From the NCBI RefSeq assembly GCF_019649055.1, contig NW_026570286.1:496001-560000 (forward strand): a DNA stretch of 64,000 bases, written 5' to 3'. Positions 10,662-48,299 of this stretch are shown here, one piece after another. Source of the DNA: Paramacrobiotus metropolitanus. Lineage: Eukaryota > Tardigrada > Eutardigrada > Parachela > Macrobiotidae. The notes beneath the pieces were generated by a model. It saw only the letters and a list, made by a program, of their open reading frames with translations. It was not told the DNA's origin and made no database searches. Numbering within the stretch: position 1 is the first letter of the stretch; each line of letters starts with the position of its first letter. Both the position numbers and the translations under genes were made by a program.

Positions 10662-13600
10662 TCATTCATAATGATCAAAGGTCCATTTCTGCGTGTCAGA
10701 TCCCGAGCACTTTTTGACAACGACATCACCGGCGTTCGACACCCCCTCCACATCTAAACAGAGTCCCGTGGCTGGGTGCTTCATCTCACCGCCCTAGTAC
10801 ACACACAGCGTGTTACAGTTGCATTATGCAGTGACACTTATCCAGGTAAATATTTTCAGAAGCGGCCACAACACCACACGAGCGAGCCAGCAGGCATAAG
10901 CCAATAAACAGCAGCGAGAGACTCCACGCAAAGCGGCGTTAAAATCACATTTGTAATCAATTAGGTAGTCAACGATTTGCACAACCACAAAGTCAACACG
11001 GGAGCAAGCGTTGCGACCCTGCGATTTGCTCAATCAACGATAAAAGCAGTTATCAGAAGTATACCCGAAATATAATATCAATCTCTTCCCACACGATAAG
11101 ATCTACAAGCAATATCGCAAAAAAAAAGAATAGCCCCGAAAATCAAACTTAAAATAGTATTAACAAATAACAATTAGCAGTCCACTTGTGCTAAGCAGGA
11201 TGATTCAGTAGGCATTTGTATTACATCCAATGTTCTACGTCATAAACACCAACGTACTGAAGCGATTAAGCTTATGAGTGCACTCGTGAAGCAGAACTCT
11301 ATTGTCCAGCACTAGCGCTACCATGGTAGTTTATATTATCGCAATATCGCTTACCTTCACATGTGTCCACTTTTGTGACTCCATCTTATGGCACGGATAC
11401 ATTTTCACAACTTCCCCATCCCGCGCATGCTTTGTTACATCCGCACAATTTTCCTCCCGCCTTAACTGGCCATCTTTACTTAACGAAAATAACTGCAAGA
11501 ATCAACACACATTCCTAGCAGGCACGAAACAAGAGAATCAAATACTAGTACACAGAACCCCAATATTATTTCAAAAGTTAAATTTTTTTTGCGTTTCAGT
11601 GCGACAGTACCTGTGCGGAAGACTTTCCCTGACAATGGTACACTCCAATATTCAACGTTAACTTCTCGTCCTTGCCCAGCATATCCAAACAAAACCCTGA
11701 TTTGTCGTTTTTTAACTGAAAACGATACGAGCACAGCGTTCTCGATACAACAGTCGTTCAACACAAATTCTCACAGTGCGGCTTACTTGGCCAAACCCTT
11801 GCACTCCTTCATCTGGAATGAATTTTTCCGGATACACATTATCCAAATACCACTTGAAATCGTGGCATTTTAGTTTCTCTCGCAAAGCTTTCCTTTCCGA
11901 AATATCTCCGATGTCTTTTTTCTACAATGTAGAAATCTATATTAATCATAATTTACTATTCAATGGAAAATGCGAAGGCATGTCAAACAGGCGAGTGCGG
12001 AGGCGACAACAAACTAACTAATCGGGCTAACCTCGAGTTCTTGTCGGTGCAAGTAAAACAGCCTCTTGTACCCATCCATCCAGACCTCAGCTAACCGCGC
12101 CGAATTAATTCCATGTGTATCTTTATTCGGTGTGCCGTCGCGTCCCGTGAATGTATACGGATGACTTGCTCTGAAAACTGGACACAACGACTTATGCAAA
12201 TACCTTTCCCTTCGCCAAATGCTAGATGCAAACTTACTGTGTCCAACACGGGAACACGGAAGAAACTCCAAAGTTCCATGGCACATCCAATTCTAATACA
12301 AAAAACGGTTATTGCAAATCACAGTACACACATATAGAATAAAATAACTTACTCGGAAAGAGATTTCCAGATTTTCTCCTACAAAGATGCCACCAATCAT
12401 TGCAAACTGTCAGAAGACCGGCAATCTGTTTTACCAACCTCCCCAAACGTCCATCCCTTCGTCGTACGCTCCCACTTCAAAAAACCACTTTCTATCAGCT
12501 GCAAAGAGCCCACCAGCCATTGTTGGACTTCTGCAGACATAAACAAAATTAGTTTAGACCAATGTAACATAATAATATAAAAATCTGGATCAAAGAGTGT
12601 ACAGGCAATAGGTAACCTGATGGGATCAGTTGACTTTCTCCCTGGGACGTCTTTAACCCCTTCCCATGAGAAATGCAGGCTCCAGCTGAAGCCACCTGAT
12701 GCGCTTCCACCGTTTAGGGAATATCTTAACGCATGATCATCTATCGCATCCACCATGGGACAAATCATGGTACGGGGATTGTCTTTTATACGTTGCAAAA
12801 TTGGTTCTAACCTACAAAAACTCCATGCTATTTTTGTTTCCTTACGAGATTGTGAATTTGTGGTGATCTAATTTTATATTACAGATGTACATTTTTGAAG
12901 GATCCCACCCCTAGGGAAGTCGAGCCACCCAACTGTTCCAACCCTTTTAAGCCAACTCTTTGATCCAGAAGTCAATTTAACCATAAAAAATACCGGTAAG
13001 GTTCCACATTAGATTTCCGCCGTTTGTTCTCAGCGGCTTGCATGCTAACCCATTTAAAATGTAACGACCACCAGAATCCACCGCTAGAACCATGTCCGGT
13101 ACTGGAGTAGGTCAAAGAATGGTCACTAATTACGTCAATCATGGGACAGATCATGGTCTGGGGACTTTCCTTTATACGTTGCAAAATTGGTTCTAACCTA
13201 CAAAAATTAGTTGAGCAATGATTATTCTCAAGTTTTGTAACGTTTCACCCATGAGAAAAACACTGTCATGCAATTAATTGATGAGTTCAATTTCTGCTGC
13301 TGCCCTCGAATCAACAGGTCCCATTCACCCAAACCAAGTTTCACTCTTTGATCCAGAAAATTTGCATGACTATTAATCACAAAATACCTATACGGCTCGA
13401 TATCAGATTTCCGTTGGTTCTGCGGACTGGCTTGCAAATAAACCCATTTAAAATGTAACGACCACCAAAATCCACCCACACCACTGTTTCCGGTACTGGC
13501 GTAGTTCAGAGAGTGATCGCTAATTACATCAATCATGGGACATATCATAGTATGTGGACTTTCTTTAATACGTTGCAAAATCGGCTCTAACCTATAAAAA

Positions 13601-15499
13601 TAATTTACTTCAACGAAATGCCGGAAATTGCTGTAATAGCTCACGGAACCATATTTCCAGAAAGCGGCTTTTCCGGTTTTCAATGTTAACCACTGTCTCT
13701 CAAATTTCTCGACGTTACAAAACTGACTCTCATACAAGCGTGTCAAACACTCTCCACCTTTACACTCTTTGATCCAGCGAATGCCAATGTACCGAAATGG
13801 TTTTTAAATACCGATAACGACGAATATCGGAATTGTGGCGATTCTTTGTCTCATTCGTATAAACCCATTTAAAAACTAGTGACCATGAAAATCCGCCGCT
13901 CAGTATGTATCCTGTAGCCGAGTAATTGATGAACGACGCATCGATAACATCAATGATTGGACAAATCAATGTGCGCGGACTCTCCTTTATGCGTGCTAAA
14001 ACTGGTTCCAGCCTAATCACCACGAAACTTCAGGATTTAAAAAAATGTAGGGAATACTGCTGACATATTTCTGTCTGTCTTCTGAGTGGGCAAGTGTTAG
14101 TTAGTTAGTGCAAAGAGCACACACCACAGCTTTTAATCTGCACGACGAGTGATTATTAATGGCCAAAGCAGCGATCGAAACCGATTACGAGATTACACCA
14201 GCAGCGAAGCTAAAACGGCAACCTCTTCGTAGAAACTTACCACCCCACATTGGCTTCACAATGCGAATCCAGGAATATCACAACATCTCCAGTAGCTGCC
14301 TCTGCGCCGCGAACCCGCGCACTAATTAAGCCCTGTCGCGATTTCGCACGGACAATCTTCACCACATTGGTGTCGAAATTCTCCGCCACATATTTTCTCC
14401 AGCTTCCCGCCCAGACCGTCTGCAAAGTACATAAAGCACTGATACCGAGCTAAGGGAAAACGGTTGCTGAAAAAATATTAAATACCTCGATCACTGAAAT
14501 CGTCCAATAAAACCACTTCCTTCAGTAGATCCGGCGGAGATCGGTTGATCACACTCCACACTGTCCGCAGCAACGGTGTCCATGCTTCGTTATGAAAAAT
14601 GATCACTACACTGGCTGTCGGAAGTTCAGCGTCGTATTCGATATCTTTACACCTGCAAAAACATTTACCTTTGAAATATTTTACAGTACGCATATTAATA
14701 TTGGCCACTGTTTACATCAACAAGTTAAAACATTTGGAAAACATTTGGAAAATATGAAAGACACTGCACTCATTAAAACAACCTCTCCCAGTCAAAAAAA
14801 TTATGGTACCATATGTATTAATGCTGGATACTATAGACTTTGCGATCAATAAGTTTAGCGTTATACTATTTTTGAAGCGAAACTATAACATGTCGATGCT
14901 TTTCAACTCATCACTCATTACCTATGTTATACTGGACATTTTCTATCGATCGTTTGCAAAAACGATGGATTTCCTGAAATTCCGCAACCACTGAAATACG
15001 GTATATAACTGGAAGCCATTCTGTAATTTCACGTCTACATTTACCTGAAAAAATTACGTATGCGCTATGTGGCCATTGCATGATTTGTAACGCCAGAGGC
15101 TAAAAAAGCTTACTTGGGATCGCGAACGTCTGGAACGGTTCGCTGCAGCGAAATCTTATCACTGGCGATAATATTGAAAGCCTCCTTCTTGAACAGCGCA
15201 TCAGCCTGCTCCTGCTCATCCTTGGTCAGCACAACACCCTGTCCGTTCTCGCCTGGTGCATCACGCTCGACTTTATCCGAACGCACTTGGTAGTCCGCAC
15301 GACGCTTGCCTCGTTTCTCTCCCACAACGGCCCCTGCAACGGGCGCTCCCTTATCACCCACTGCATTGCGTGCAGGGAAGGAAAACACATCAGTGAAACC
15401 AATGAAGCCACATGCCAGAATGAGGATAACGGCCAGCGCCAGTAAACGACCGAGCGTCACGCGTGGATACAGAAGGGTACGACGCAGTCGAGAAACCAT
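10662..15499 (-). CDS. GALNT: Polypeptide N-acetylgalactosaminyltransferase with alternative exons
   Basis: Golgi type II membrane enzyme that transfers GalNAc from UDP-GalNAc to Ser/Thr, starting mucin-type O-glycosylation (GT27, plus ricin-B lectin domain). Exons: 15499-15114, 14652-14486, 14419-14241, one of four variants (14012-13812, 13591-13388, 13197-12994, 12811-12617), 12530-12439, 12378-12353 (26-nt microexon), 12292-12238, 12168-12032, 11921-11787, 11715-11611, 11492-11355, 10793-10662. The product is about 583 residues, the usual family length. Visible: a short basic cytosolic tail and one membrane anchor (about residues 20-38), [17 protein letters not shown], the metal-binding [12 protein letters not shown] (DxH), [45 protein letters not shown], then three lectin repeats with CLD and QxW motifs ([27 protein letters not shown]). 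Exon 14419-14241 carries one extra base in an A run (14393-14396) that breaks the frame, probably a sequence error. I cannot assign the vertebrate subtype. Confidence 0.95.
12585..12601 (-). promoter_or_regulatory. Predicted docking site after GALNT variant 4
   Basis: In the transcript sense TACACTCTTTGATCCAG, 15-31 nt past the variant 4 donor and about 54 nt before the constitutive acceptor at 12530. It is the exact reverse complement of the core shared by the three selector elements. Tandem duplication would give the same orientation, not the opposite one, so the complementarity suggests selected RNA pairing. Confidence 0.75.
12617..12811 (-). CDS. GALNT alternative exon, variant 4 (195 nt)
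   Basis: Last copy, three codons shorter than variants 2 and 3. It encodes [18 protein letters not shown], the acidic [21 protein letters not shown] and a proline-containing end. The donor is CAG|GTTACC, a weaker match to consensus than those of a typical constitutive exon. Only 86 nt separate it from the next constitutive exon (12530-12439), and that short intron contains the predicted docking site. Confidence 0.92.
12955..12969 (-). promoter_or_regulatory. Predicted selector element after GALNT variant 3
   Basis: In the transcript sense TCTGGATCAAAGAGT, 25-39 nt past the variant 3 donor. It pairs perfectly over 15 nt with the docking element. Pairing would loop out variant 4. Confidence 0.75.
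12994..13197 (-). CDS. GALNT alternative exon, variant 3 (204 nt)
   Basis: Third tandem copy, with acceptor TTTTGTAG and donor CCG|GTATTT. It encodes [29 protein letters not shown] and a C-terminal segment ending NVEPYR. Differences from variant 2 cluster in two places: the YSSTGHGSS stretch before GGF and the segment after FKW. In the family, these surround the acceptor-peptide and sugar-binding face of the catalytic domain. Confidence 0.93.
13342..13357 (-). promoter_or_regulatory. Predicted selector element after GALNT variant 2
   Basis: In the transcript sense TCTGGATCAAAGAGTG, 31-46 nt past the variant 2 donor. It pairs perfectly over 16 nt with the docking element at 12585-12601 and its neighbouring base. 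Pairing would loop out variants 3 and 4. Confidence 0.75.
13388..13591 (-). CDS. GALNT alternative exon, variant 2 (204 nt)
   Basis: Second tandem copy, same phase and splice signals (TATAG acceptor, AG|GTATTTTG donor). It encodes [18 protein letters not shown], then the variable [20 protein letters not shown] and the variable segment before SDIEPYR. By eye it is closest to variant 3, so these two probably come from the most recent duplication. Length is a multiple of three, so including two variants at once would not break the frame. Confidence 0.93.
13761..13777 (-). promoter_or_regulatory. Predicted selector element after GALNT variant 1
   Basis: In the transcript sense this intronic element reads CTGGATCAAAGAGTGTA and lies 35-51 nt past the variant 1 donor. 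It is a perfect 17-nt complement of the element at 12585-12601. After one mismatch, three more pairs form (AGG with CCT). Pairing would loop out variants 2-4. Confidence 0.75.
13812..14012 (-). CDS. GALNT alternative exon, variant 1 (201 nt)
   Basis: First of four homologous exons that can follow exon 14419-14241. The upstream donor leaves TG; the first base of each variant completes the Trp codon of VGW. The exon ends in CG before a GTATTT donor, and the next exon completes the Arg codon. It encodes 66 full codons beginning [18 protein letters not shown], with the family hallmark GGFSWSL in the middle. It is the most divergent in the last third, where the other variants have Q/S-rich text. 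It lies directly after a 228-nt intron from exon 3. Confidence 0.93.
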
Positions 15500-16339: not shown

Positions 16340-17508
16340 TTAATTTCTGGGTCCAATATCGCTGGATTTAATGACATTTCCGGAACCCATTTTCATCACG
16401 GTCAACTCAGGGTCTGCTCCATATCGAACAAGGCCGGAACCCATTGAAACAACGGACAACTGATCCCGAGCGTCGATATTCACATCCCCTGCACCTGCAA
16501 ATTAGAGTACGATGACCAATTATGATCATGACACCCATAAAACTTGAGGTTTTAACTTCTGACGGCTTGATTGCATACATATTAACTGCATTGCATATTA
16601 ATTTTTACATGTTAGTGGTGTTGGTGTGTATGGGCCGCTATGGTTAACAAGCAAGATTACAACTACTTGTACTGCACCGTTTTAACTGCATCATATAATT
16701 ATTTCGACTTTCGAAAGTAAAAGTATTCTCGAGCAGTTTACAATTTTACATAAACTATTTTAGCACATGTTTGTCTATCTACAGCCTACAGACAATCTTC
16801 TGCATTCTCGTATCCTTAACATAACGAACTTGCACATTTGAGTACTAATTATTATCTTGTAATTAGTTTTGGATATTTCGAATATTTTATATACAATTGT
16901 AACTACAGCTGGTTTCGATTGTAGTGCGAGTACGTATGTACATCATACCATAAATCGCAATCGATGCTTTGTCCGCTACCAGTTTATCAGCGAGCACTTT
17001 GCCGGCCCCACTGACAACCATGTTGACGCTCTCGGTTTTCCCCTGCAGATTAATGAAGCCCGATCCACTGAGCACAACATTAAGGTCATGCGAGTCCACC
17101 GGCACAGAAACATTCCCTGATCCCGAGCTCACAACGCTAACCGAGGGTGTCTTCAACACCGTATTCAGCCCCGAGGGAACCCGAGCCGCTCAACACATAA
17201 CTGGACACGGATTTGCCGGTTATGAAGATGTGGATCAATCCGGTAAATGCTCCCACATCCCACTCATACGGCCAAAGGAATTTCACCTTCAACGCCCCGT
17301 TCTCTACCGTGGTCGACAGGGCATCGGTTACGTTGGTGTCGTTCAAAGCCGCTTCAATGCGCAGTGATTCCGTGCCGGTCATGTCGACGTCCACGACGAA
17401 AGGTCCCGATATTTCGATGCCTTTGAAACCGGATACATCGCGGTTTAACGTGATGTTAGCCCCCGTTGAGCTCCATATTATCACAGTCGTCAGTGCGAAT
17501 AACAGCAT
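16340..17508 (-). CDS. Secreted GIN-domain (DUF2807-like) beta-repeat protein
   Basis: Two exons, 17508-16949 and 16494-16340, joined by a 454-nt GT-AG intron (TATG split as TAT G|GT). The protein is about 237 residues. It starts with a signal peptide (MLLFALTTVIIWSSTGA). A FKGIEISGPFVVDVDMTG strand pair follows, then repeats of the type SGSGSL, SGSGNV, LSGSGFI, VSGAGKV, MGSGLV and MGSGNV spaced about 20 residues apart. That pattern matches the 'putative auto-transporter adhesin, head GIN domain' family (DUF2807), a right-handed beta-helix-like fold mostly known from Bacteroidetes. Substrate and function are unknown. The reading frame breaks once, in a run of four C (plus strand 17169-17172): removing one base restores the repeat register exactly. 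Sequence error is likely, but a real frameshift that kills the gene cannot be excluded. A bacterial origin is possible. Confidence 0.8.
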
Positions 17509-19100
17509 TTTCAGAAAATATCTGTATAACTGCCGATTTCTAATCGATAACTAACAACAACAACAAAACTCTTTGGACACACACATATAAATCATAGAAC
17601 TAAAATCTGCTCCCACAGGCACGGTAGCTCTGCTGCCTCTGCACCTTTAATTTAAATGTATACTTGGAAATACCAGTGTTCCGTATTCATACTAAAAACA
17701 CAATGATATCGCTGAATTCTTTCAAGCATGACAAACTGGTGTTATGATTTCTGGAAACTCCGGTGCATAAATTATGATTGTACGACGACTGCTGTATTGC
17801 ACAACAACACCGCACTTCACAAACCTGTATTTCCTCCGGCACGAACTGGTCGAAGAGTCTAATTATTTAATGCTCCAACCATATCATTATAGATCATTAC
17901 AGGAAGAAAGGTAAATACGGACTACCTAGCCTTTGACGAGATACAGAATTACAATTACTATTACTATTACAATTATTCTTTGCAAATTATGAAGCACAAA
18001 GTATGACAAAATAGGTGTGCTGGGTGCATTACATTAATCGCTATCCTGTATCTGTACTTGAACACGGCATCATACAGAATACAGATCGGAGTATTGGACT
18101 ATTCTTGCAGAACTCCGAACCAGTTTACTGAAAATTATAAAGAATATTATCAGACTGCGATAAAAACACTTGCATAATTTTTTAATCCCATGTACAAAGC
18201 AAATTACCGGCATTTACAGAATACAACCAGACTATACATTTTTACTGTACAATGGCGAAATATCTATACGTTTTATTGAAGAAAATGGTCTTAACACCTT
18301 CCGTGCTTGTGCCAACATGCAACAAAATAACCAACTGAAACCAGCAAGAAGTTGTACTTCCACTTTGTAGTATCTTTTGAACCTATAGATACCTGAATAT
18401 TTATATCTTGATTACTCTTAACTTGTTGGTAAAATTTTCGCATCCTATGTAGATAACTGGCCAGTGGCTACCAAAGCGAGAGGAACATCCTTGTTCTCGC
18501 TCTCAGAACACTGGTTTCATTCCCTTTTAATTTCCGACTAACAATTGTAAGTTTTCCATTAACTGTTGCTAAACTAGCAATAAAAACCGAAGCCCATACA
18601 AAGCAGCGTCGAGGGACCGTAAATTTTTCTAAATGACTTGCAGTAGGGAGAAAAATTAGTATGCAACACATTCCGATTTAACACCCAATTATGCCGCGTG
18701 CAGTAATATAGATATTTTCATACAAGCGCTGCCTTTTATTACTGTACACATAAGTACGTAATTAAATTGTACATAAGTACTTAATTACACAGCAAACAAG
18801 CACACATCAGGGATATTATAGATATAATATCTGTTACCGATTAACAGTCACGGACTCACAGATACAGTACTCTCTAAAAATCCAACAGGCATAACAACGA
18901 TATTATTACAGCACTTTATGTAAAAGTAGAACCATGAGTCATGACTATGTATAACTAGGTATCTTTTCCGTTCCTTGTAAACACTCCCAGAAAACATGGC
19001 CAGGGACACACTCACACAGCATACACAAACCGTCAGGGGTGCAGCTTTCACAGAACGGTTCTTTAAATTCCCCTCCAGATCTGCTTCATGCGTGGACCGT
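17509..19100. other. Intergenic, no gene recognised
   Basis: AT-rich, with only short frames that have no supporting splice partners or recognisable protein. It contains the promoter side of the GIN-domain gene and the 3' untranslated region of the small minus-strand gene that stops at 19101. Confidence 0.5.
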
Positions 19101-45899: not shown

Positions 45900-48299
45900 G
45901 TATCGGAGACATGCTTAAATGATCAATATCAACAATGGGGACCGGTCTGCAATTACATGATTAATGGCACTTTTGATGGGCACAATAAATACGGCAATTA
46001 TAAATGTCTCTTAAGTGGACGGTTAAAGACATATTCACTTATATAATTTCCCTCCATGATCTTGTCACGTACGCCCCGGTCGACGACGTCAACAGCACAC
46101 GACCAGCAATTAAAGGATCGGCGACAAAATCCCGGCACAGAAGAAAATTACTTCCCTTTCGGCAATTCTACGACATCGAAGGGAAATTTACCGGTAATTT
46201 CAGCAAAAATGTTAGATCATTCGGCTCATGTGCATGACAACCGGCTTTTCTGTAATAATATTGTATGTACTCGTATGTATATCTGGTCGATTATGCGGGA
46301 GTCAATCAAGAGAACATCCATTCACACTGCCGTGGAGAATTTTCTCGTATTTGCATTAAAAAATTGCATTTTTATATACGGAAGCCGATGTGATGATGAC
46401 AAGGCTATGCAAACAACAAATAAAATACCTAAACAGAAAATGAAAACATTTGCACAGGGAGAAAATGGAAAAAACATCCATCATTCGGGTTAAAAACGGG
46501 CCTTTTAAAGATTTTCGCCGGCAATTGTCACCAGCTACGGGATACATCATACACGTAAGACGTCGTCTACACAGGGCAATCCATAATCTGTCGTCAGATC
46601 TGTCTGCTACCGTTTGACGTCTGTTTACGCTGTGGTGCGGCTATACACATGTGCCGAGGTGGAATTAACGTGTAGTTTCACGCCTGGCCTAAGCCGAGCA
46701 CAATAGCCGCTTTTCTCGGTGTATATGTGTTGTGTCGATCCTCTTTATCCCGGTATTTTCTTTTATCCTTGATCGGGAATTTATATCTTTGTAGCACATA
46801 GGAGGAAAGTGGCTTCTCATGTTTCGTCCGGCACACACAAGACGGTGTGATCCATCTCTGCCCGGCATCGCTTTTATGATTTATTCTATGTATACATATA
46901 TCCTCAGCTTGTATTGCTATGGTGTGTATATGCGAGTACATTCGATAACATGTACAATGATGGGAATACGGGTGCCTAAAGCGCAAACTTTGATCTTTAG
47001 GAACCCGGGATCAGTTTTGTCCTGAGCCGGCATCGGCCGAGGAAAAAGCACGTTTTGTGTTCAATGATGTTTGAGAGTGTTTTTCTTCCGAGCACGTACC
47101 TGGAGTGACCTTATGCAACCCTTAAGCTACAGCATTTTCCAGTGTAAAGGCGTGAATTATTTTATAAATTTTTGTACTGTAGATTGTAAATTTTGCGCAG
47201 ACCGATCGATCGAAATATTAAACTTATAATCCATGTAGGCTTGTATTTACACAGCGTAATGATGCATGATGACACAAGCATCATTCAGCGCGAAAGGTAT
47301 CATCATTACAAAGTATCTGGTGACACCGGTGACACCGGTGACACCGGTGACACCTTTCGCGCTGAATGATGTTAATTATTTACTTTGTAAAAATTATCCA
47401 TGTCATTACCGCGAAATTTAACAGAAATTACTGGTAATACCCCAATGATTTCTATTATAACTAACATTACAGCATCACGAGACGTACGGAGGTCACATAA
47501 ACAAGGAGTAACACTGGTACCGGTGTCTCGGGAAAGCAGGGGGTGAATTGCAATATACGTATATGTACTGTACCTGATGACTTACGGCTCATCCTGTCTG
47601 TCAATGTGCATCATAATTCAAAACGAGCAGAAGAATGGCTTAGTTTTAATGATTTACTGATCCCCGATAAAAATTGACCTTTTTGTTTGTCGCACTCTTC
47701 GCAATGAGAACATTCGTAGTTCTTCCCCATTCATTAAAACTTCTAACGGGTACCAAAGATGCAAATTAATTATGATTACTGACGATTGACGAACCACTCA
47801 TTCACATGGCTATGCAAAGTTGTCGTAGTAAGTGTACGAGTTTGATTTTGGTATTGCATTTTCACTCACGAATACTTGTTTTGGGATTATGAAAAAATTT
47901 CTCAGTGATGGCAAAGTTAAAAAAATCCGAGTGCATAAATCCGATTTATTAATATATATTAACACGCATAAATTCGTAATAATAAATCAGACGGAATAAT
48001 CGCAGCCAATGCGGCAATTAACCACCACACAGAATGCTTACATTACAATCCTCGCTCAATATCAGCGCAAAAAGAACAACAAAAAAACCAGCTGACCACA
48101 ATGAAAGTACACCCAAGTGCAATTTCCGATGACAAACAACACACACTACCCGCACCAGCACGCAGAAAACAAAAACCCTTCCAACGACATTTACAACGAC
48201 ACAAAGCGAAATCCCTGCAAAAAAATGTCAAAAACCCGCGACATGCCAATAAACAATCCATAACAAAGCCGTGGAATGGAATGATTAACATCGCTCCAT
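45900..48299. other. Intergenic with an inverted-repeat element
   Basis: Upstream of the Ly6 gene and downstream of TCERG1, so it holds a promoter and a 3' untranslated region. A 145-codon frame at 46056-46493 and others here lack protein character. The notable structure is the hairpin at 47279-47371. Confidence 0.5.
47279..47371. repeat. 20-bp perfect inverted repeat flanking four 9-bp repeats
   Basis: The left arm 47279-47298 (CATCATTCAGCGCGAAAGGT) is exactly complementary to the right arm 47352-47371. Between them, at 47319-47354, the unit GGTGACACC occurs four times with no spacer; the last copy overlaps the right arm by three bases. Each unit is a palindrome apart from its central base. 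The element can form a long hairpin or a cruciform. The arms are GC-richer than their surroundings. Confidence 0.95.

Follow-up and report, generated by a model that had tools for sequence, protein, structure and literature searches.

A tandem cluster of four variant exons in a tardigrade GalNAc-transferase gene and its probable control by competing docking-site/selector RNA pairing

The stretch of DNA analysed here, referred to simply as the window, comprises 64,000 nucleotides of the Paramacrobiotus metropolitanus genome. A search of the assembly with a tardigrade CAHS protein gave 20 matches, several being parts of a single gene; the best was 65% identical (E-value of 3.0e-69) and the second 71% identical (4.4e-55). 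CAHS proteins are not known outside eutardigrades, and these matches suggest an animal of that group. As to a nematode or arthropod origin, the exact SL1 exon and the TTAGGN and TTAGG repeats had 0 matches, which shows little by itself; a search for COX1 likewise gave no match. On its minus strand, from 15499 to 10662, it carries a polypeptide GalNAc-transferase (GALNT) gene. In a profile search, the product exhibited a GT2 catalytic domain (PF00535) and a C-terminal ricin-type lectin domain (PF00652). The product contains the motif DSHCE, in agreement with the DxH pattern, and the solved relatives that scored best in the alignments included GALNT1, GALNT2 and the Drosophila PGANT9A/B. The two domains, the motif and the alignments to GALNT1, GALNT2 and PGANT9 together indicate that the product is a polypeptide GalNAc-transferase.

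The gene is divided into three constitutive exons, four tandem homologous variants (v1 to v4) and then eight constitutive exons (12530 to 10662), all of them on the minus strand. Exon 1 (15114..15499) holds the ATG start, a hydrophobic anchor-like stretch recognized by eye, and the stem region, and it ends at the donor CAA/gtaagc. The GT2 catalytic domain begins in exon 2 (14486..14652), and exon 3 (14241..14419) directly precedes the variants. These are v1 (13812..14012, 201 nt), v2 (13388..13591, 204 nt), v3 (12994..13197, 204 nt) and v4 (12617..12811, 195 nt). All four have lengths divisible by three and are of the same phase; the cluster is thus a tandem array of homologous, same-phase exons lying between two constitutive ones. 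The constitutive exon that follows the cluster (12439..12530) encodes SPTMAGGLF... and has A as its first base. Further constitutive exons lie at 12353..12378, 12238..12292, 12032..12177 and 11787..11921. The lectin domain is encoded by the exons at 11611..11715 and 11355..11492 and by the last coding exon (10662..10793), which includes the stop.

Compared with its relatives, exon 3 carries a single surplus base in the four-A run at 14396-14393, and as assembled this frameshift truncates every GALNT isoform. The extra base could be due to an assembly error, to an allele or to early decay. In a paralog (locus L038), the frame is intact, as judged by eye, at the site matching this A-run. The frameshift is what would be expected if the gene were a decaying pseudogene whose splicing control is obsolete. 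We regard that as distinctly unlikely, since it is a single shift in a four-A run, consistent with assembly error or an allele, while the exons other than exon 3 are open and the splice sites are GT...AG. Moreover, comparison of v2 with v3 gave a dN/dS of about 0.17 (0.15/0.87), which points to purifying selection on the variant exons. Over all pairs of variant exons, dN ranged from 0.15 to 0.65; dS was 0.87 for v2/v3 and 1.91 for v3/v4, and was beyond correction for the four other pairs.

We examined the reading frames that result from different combinations of the variants. Downstream of the exon 3 frameshift, every way of including at least one variant (15 of 15) stayed in frame and met no stop. 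When all four variants were skipped (14241 joined to 12530), a TGA stop, split as TG/A, was formed exactly at the junction, because the constitutive exon at 12530 begins with A. Hence, decay could clear transcripts that carry no variant, but not those that carry several, in which double inclusion is in frame. Crowding does not enforce exclusion either, since the introns between the variants (220, 190 and 182 nt) are longer than a 60-nt intron of the same gene (12439-12378). The 14 donors are all GT, and no U12-type motif was seen by eye. Thus neither crowding, nor a U2/U12 mismatch, nor a frameshift or stop at double inclusion was found in this cluster, and as far as the sequence goes, mutual exclusion here would need an active mechanism. 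It may be noted that excerpts of PMC6071210 describe short introns, U2/U12 incompatibility and decay as each limited, and competing RNA structure as the major mechanism. An argument from weak donors was also tried and given up: the variant donors are on the weaker side, yet they overlap the constitutive ones.

With any combination permitted by the frames, the variants could in principle be spliced together or freely combined, giving proteins with tandem repeats. Such an outcome is barely credible to us. The solved GALNTs that were aligned have one such segment, and the fold would probably not survive the repetition of a segment of 65-68 residues within the catalytic core. In addition, the pairing described below would loop out the later variants.

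The introns after v1, v2 and v3 each contain a selector of the form (T)CTGGATCAAAGAGT(GTA), and the intron after v4 contains the reverse complement. These elements had been reported in the earlier note, and all four were located again at the same places on the minus strand. Selector 1 (13761..13777) lies 34 nt past the v1 donor, selector 2 (13342..13357) 30 nt past the v2 donor, and selector 3 (12955..12969) 24 nt past the v3 donor. The docking site (12584..12601) lies 15 nt past the v4 donor, within the 86-nt last intron (12616-12531). Selectors 1, 2 and 3 match the dock perfectly over 17, 16 and 15 bp, the same lengths as those claimed previously, and the corresponding duplex energies were -27.1, -26.0 and -23.4 kcal/mol. 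The loops, put at about 1160, 740 and 350 nt in that claim, measured about 1159, 742 and 356 nt here. A single intronic dock is thus complementary to the selectors of three of the four variants, and a selector belonging to v4 was not found. Intron 4 folded alone gave -8.3 kcal/mol, with no clear case of a hairpin serving as a v4 selector. The other pairs of at least 9 nt within the cluster have no common arm that would suggest a second dock upstream of v1. A search of the 64-kb window against Rfam returned no match.

The likelihood of such pairings arising by chance was assessed on shuffled and on real sequence. No other perfect inverted pair in the pre-mRNA is as long as the selector-dock pairings of 17, 16 and 15 nt, and only two further pairs reach at least 11 nt (13 and 11 nt). 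The 1710-nt cluster was subjected to 1000 dinucleotide shuffles, and the longest pair was at least 13 nt in 25 of them, at least 14 nt in 8, at least 15 nt in 2, and at least 17 nt in 0. Three hundred shuffles of the whole pre-mRNA gave 9 pairs of at least 14 nt in total, the longest being 15 nt. For the real-sequence background we used 142,506 bases (the window and nine of the ten fetched GALNT loci), with low-complexity pairs dropped and arms at most 1300 nt apart. Nine pairs of at least 15 nt were listed, one site being counted twice because two loci overlap, and the only ones among them with arms more than 200 nt apart were the three selector-dock pairs. Finally, the whole assembly of 169.8 Mb (533 contigs) was searched. 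The 14-mer CTGGATCAAAGAGT occurred four times (1 forward, 3 reverse), each time in the variant-exon cluster, and the reversed control pattern of CTGGATCAAAGAGT occurred 0 times. An accidental complementarity of selectors and dock is therefore very unlikely, and was rejected in view of the shuffles, the real-sequence background and the uniqueness in the genome. A dispersed repeat or transposon fragment was likewise rejected as the source of the elements, the exact 14-mer being confined to the cluster. At 47279-47371 of the window we also observed a 20-nt perfect inverted repeat, the arms of which start 73 nt apart.

Having located the elements, we compared them with the sequence around them. 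Past the selectors, the alignment of the introns was no better than that of shuffled sequence (z of -0.14, -0.46 and -0.24). The longest word common to all three selector introns is the 14-mer, and nothing longer than 7 nt is shared elsewhere. Hence, among the three introns of this one locus, the elements are kept beyond their neighbouring intron sequence. The selectors look selected, since the 14-mers are identical while the remaining intron sequence, like most synonymous sites, is nearly saturated. Such identity amid saturated surroundings would most simply be explained by selection; gene conversion restricted to 14 nt is an unlikely alternative. The selectors are identical and show no compensatory changes among themselves, and this counts against the pairing model.

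According to excerpts of PMC6071210, docking/selector systems are proposed to originate by partial duplication of a stem-loop. By extension, the elements at this locus might be functionless leftovers of exon duplication, one arm of an old stem-loop having been copied along with each exon. It is highly improbable that they are only this. The introns behind the selectors can no longer be aligned and the synonymous sites are saturated or nearly so in five of the six exon pairs, but the three 14-mers are still identical and perfectly complementary to the dock. Stem-loop duplication may be the origin of the elements; a lack of function is not suggested.

The competition between the selectors was then followed in predicted structures. 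When 1301 nt were folded, selector 1 paired with the dock at a mean pair probability of 0.99. When 1710 nt were folded, selector 3 paired with the dock at 0.92, selector 2 at 0.06 and selector 1 at 0.002. In both foldings the dock was taken up almost entirely by one selector or another, and which selector prevailed depended on the span folded, as befits near-equal competitors among which the choice would be set by kinetics or proteins. The predicted minimum free energy was -456.1 kcal/mol for the intact sequence, -453.8 kcal/mol with the dock scrambled and -448.9 kcal/mol with all selectors scrambled. From these small changes on scrambling in silico, it follows that the pairing contributes little to the total predicted energy.

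These foldings bear on the weak step of the model, the use of v4 when the dock is unpaired. Although v4 adjoins the acceptor across the 86-nt intron, a free dock is hardly ever present at folding equilibrium. The choice of v4 would thus need an extra factor or kinetics, and our guess is that the 86-nt intron is spliced quickly or that a protein covers the dock.

The foldings also contained a candidate auxiliary stem, a 13-bp perfect pair on the minus strand between a 5' arm in intron 1 (13712..13724) and a 3' arm in intron 2 (13231..13243). It encloses v2, is nested in the loop of the selector 1-dock pairing and crosses the selector 2-dock pairing, and would thus disfavour v2. The predicted probability of this stem, 0.385 for the intact sequence, rose to 0.548 in the absence of selector 1 and to 0.955 when selector 2 was absent as well; with no selector at all it was 0.962, and with the dock absent 0.95. 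Since a pair of at least 13 nt appeared in 25 of the 1000 cluster shuffles, the stem is treated as a weak lead only.

The energetics can also be taken to favour a different control, in which the exons are alternative or mutually exclusive but cluster-specific RNA-binding proteins choose among them, the motif being a protein site and the complementarity secondary or modulatory. The pairing adds little predicted energy, equilibrium folding does not explain the choice of v4, and excerpts of PMC6379703 argue likewise for Dscam exon 4. A protein site, however, requires no exact 14-17-nt reverse complement downstream. This reverse complement is present once in the cluster and nowhere else in the assembly. 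Moreover, selector 1 remains complementary to the dock outside the shared 14-mer, over a match of 17 nt. Control by such proteins, with the pairing secondary or modulatory, is therefore, in our estimate, unlikely.

We consider it very probable that the locus is a four-variant, mutually exclusive GALNT exon cluster controlled by competing docking-site/selector RNA pairing. The earlier note had read the locus in this way, and the architecture, the chance tests, the diverged introns and the frame and stop logic all lend support; exclusion itself we infer from the sequence, as we do the splicing outcome, the loop-out, the decay and the altered specificity. According to the model, the single dock in the last intron would accept just one selector at a time out of the three. 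Once a given selector is paired, all later variants would be looped out and the donor of the corresponding variant would be drawn near the acceptor at 12530. The donor would be brought close to this acceptor because the selector lies 24-34 nt past the donor and the dock 15 nt into the 86-nt intron. A free dock would lead to the use of v4, which adjoins the 12530 acceptor across that intron. Transcripts with no variant would meet the junction TGA and be directed to nonsense-mediated decay. Transcripts with two variants would be in frame, and would have to be blocked by RNA structure, alone or together with a splicing repressor. The frame and stop logic thus suggests a division of labour, with decay acting on transcripts with no variant and RNA structure on those with two or more.

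To place the swapped segment on the enzyme, the variant exon was aligned with GalNAc-T2, of which it spans residues 233-302. In excerpts of PMC4432651, the peptide specificity of GalNAc-T2 is described as governed mainly by the hydrophobic contacts of eight residues. Five of the eight (255, 270, 280, 282 and 284) fall within the variant exon, in an alignment that is gap-free between 255 and 284. Phe280 and Trp282, which the same excerpts describe as widely conserved and key, are retained in v1-v4. Positions 255/270/284 read V/L/Y in v1, V/G/Y in v2, V/S/S in v3 and A/A/G in v4. Retention of 280 and 282 together with variation at 255, 270 and 284 is the pattern that would be expected if the isoforms are active and have different peptide preferences. 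Judged from the alignment, the swapped cassette contributes to the acceptor-peptide groove, and the four isoforms would probably differ in the proteins that they glycosylate.

A broader proposal is that, in this tardigrade, competing RNA pairing gives one glycosyltransferase gene four interchangeable acceptor-peptide grooves, and that the choice of mucin-type sites to be glycosylated is thereby made through the folding of RNA and not through the number of genes; for this proposal we see the chances as evenly balanced. If it is true, the docking/selector switch would exist beyond the arthropod and vertebrate genes in which it was seen described, and would reprogram the substrate specificity of an enzyme. 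If the activities of the isoforms differ, the locus would be a case of an animal that uses RNA folding to tune the specificity of its O-glycosylation, at groove positions mapped in human GalNAc-T2.

Docking/selector control has already been described, most familiarly in insect genes such as Dscam (excerpts of PMC6071210, PMC8042237 and PMC11802352). Clusters of the downstream-dock type, according to excerpts of PMC6071210 and PMC8042237, are those of 14-3-3zeta, Mhc, MRP1 and other Dscam clusters, including exons 4 and 9 of insects. In PMC8042237 the docks of insect exons 4 and 9 are given as clade- or species-specific. The tardigrade cluster resembles 14-3-3zeta, Mhc, MRP1 and Dscam1 exons 4 and 9 in having one dock after the cluster, downstream selectors, competing pairings and tandem duplicated exons. 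It differs from the downstream-dock clusters of insects in that the gene is a glycosyltransferase, the animal is a tardigrade, the 14-mer is identical among selectors, the pairings of 15-17 bp are perfect, and the last variant has no selector. With the Dscam1 exon 6 cluster it has the competing docking/selector logic in common; there, however, a dock upstream of the whole cluster serves selectors that come before the exons (excerpts of PMC8042237), whereas the tardigrade GALNT dock lies downstream.

Excerpts of PMC6379703 dispute that docking/selector pairing controls Dscam exon 4, on the grounds of weak conservation and of a dock situated just after the last variant, which must await transcription of the whole cluster. 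The reply in PMC8042237, likewise available as excerpts, is that such docks are clade-specific. Among the GALNT selectors the objection from conservation does not apply, but the position of the dock is the same as in Dscam exon 4. With perfect pairings of 15-17 bp, a shared 14-mer, a dock on a short intron and four variants, the tardigrade locus is a small and clean case. Being short enough for a complete minigene, the cluster would make it possible to put the model disputed in Dscam exon 4 to a direct test.

In the nematode C. elegans, splice isoforms of the GALNT gene gly-5 have alternative internal segments. In the fly, the alternative exons 8A/8B of pgant9 change substrate specificity (excerpts of PMC6115407). 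Both pgant9 and the tardigrade gene are thus GALNT genes with alternative exons, but the pgant9 swap involves two variants and lies in the lectin domain. The pgant9 excerpts, which were not selected for RNA structure, mention no pairing mechanism. For fly pgant5, alternative splicing in the catalytic domain alters peptide preference, according to excerpts of a preprint (PMC12776162). The pgant5 swap affects the catalytic flexible loop and adjacent helices, whereas the tardigrade swap affects the preceding segment of the groove (GalNAc-T2 residues 233-302).

The novelty is accordingly narrower than it may seem, since alternative GALNT exons are known (pgant9, PMC6115407; pgant5, PMC12776162; both from excerpts). 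Among the matches listed in a literature search that covered only a minority of subscription papers, none was seen to describe docking/selector control for a GALNT gene or for any gene of a tardigrade. The terms galactosaminyl and pgant had 0 full-text matches in PMC6071210, PMC11802352 and PMC3923563. The mechanism is thus a known one, for which the gene family is new and, probably, the phylum as well.

We also looked at the other GALNT genes of the assembly. When all four variants were used as queries in tblastn, no convincing second copy of the variant segment was seen at 11 GALNT loci (ten fetched stretches, one locus being degenerate; a GT2 match on contig C89 was left out). In the L038 paralog two introns agree in position and phase with those of this gene, as judged by eye, and there is a single exon. 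Among the inverted pairs at L038, the sole other GALNT locus checked for these, there was nothing comparable to the selector-dock pairing. The variant cluster thus seems particular to one GALNT gene. The degenerate GALNT copy, at L042:4722-5143 (G000:C218), has several in-frame stops and looks like a decayed gene. Near the GALNT gene, at 16887-17550 on the minus strand of the window, two open frames match PF10988 (E-values of 4.1e-15 and 2.4e-5). This family is DUF2807, a putative auto-transporter adhesin, head GIN domain, and its presence in an animal genome could possibly reflect horizontal transfer or a little-noticed animal family.
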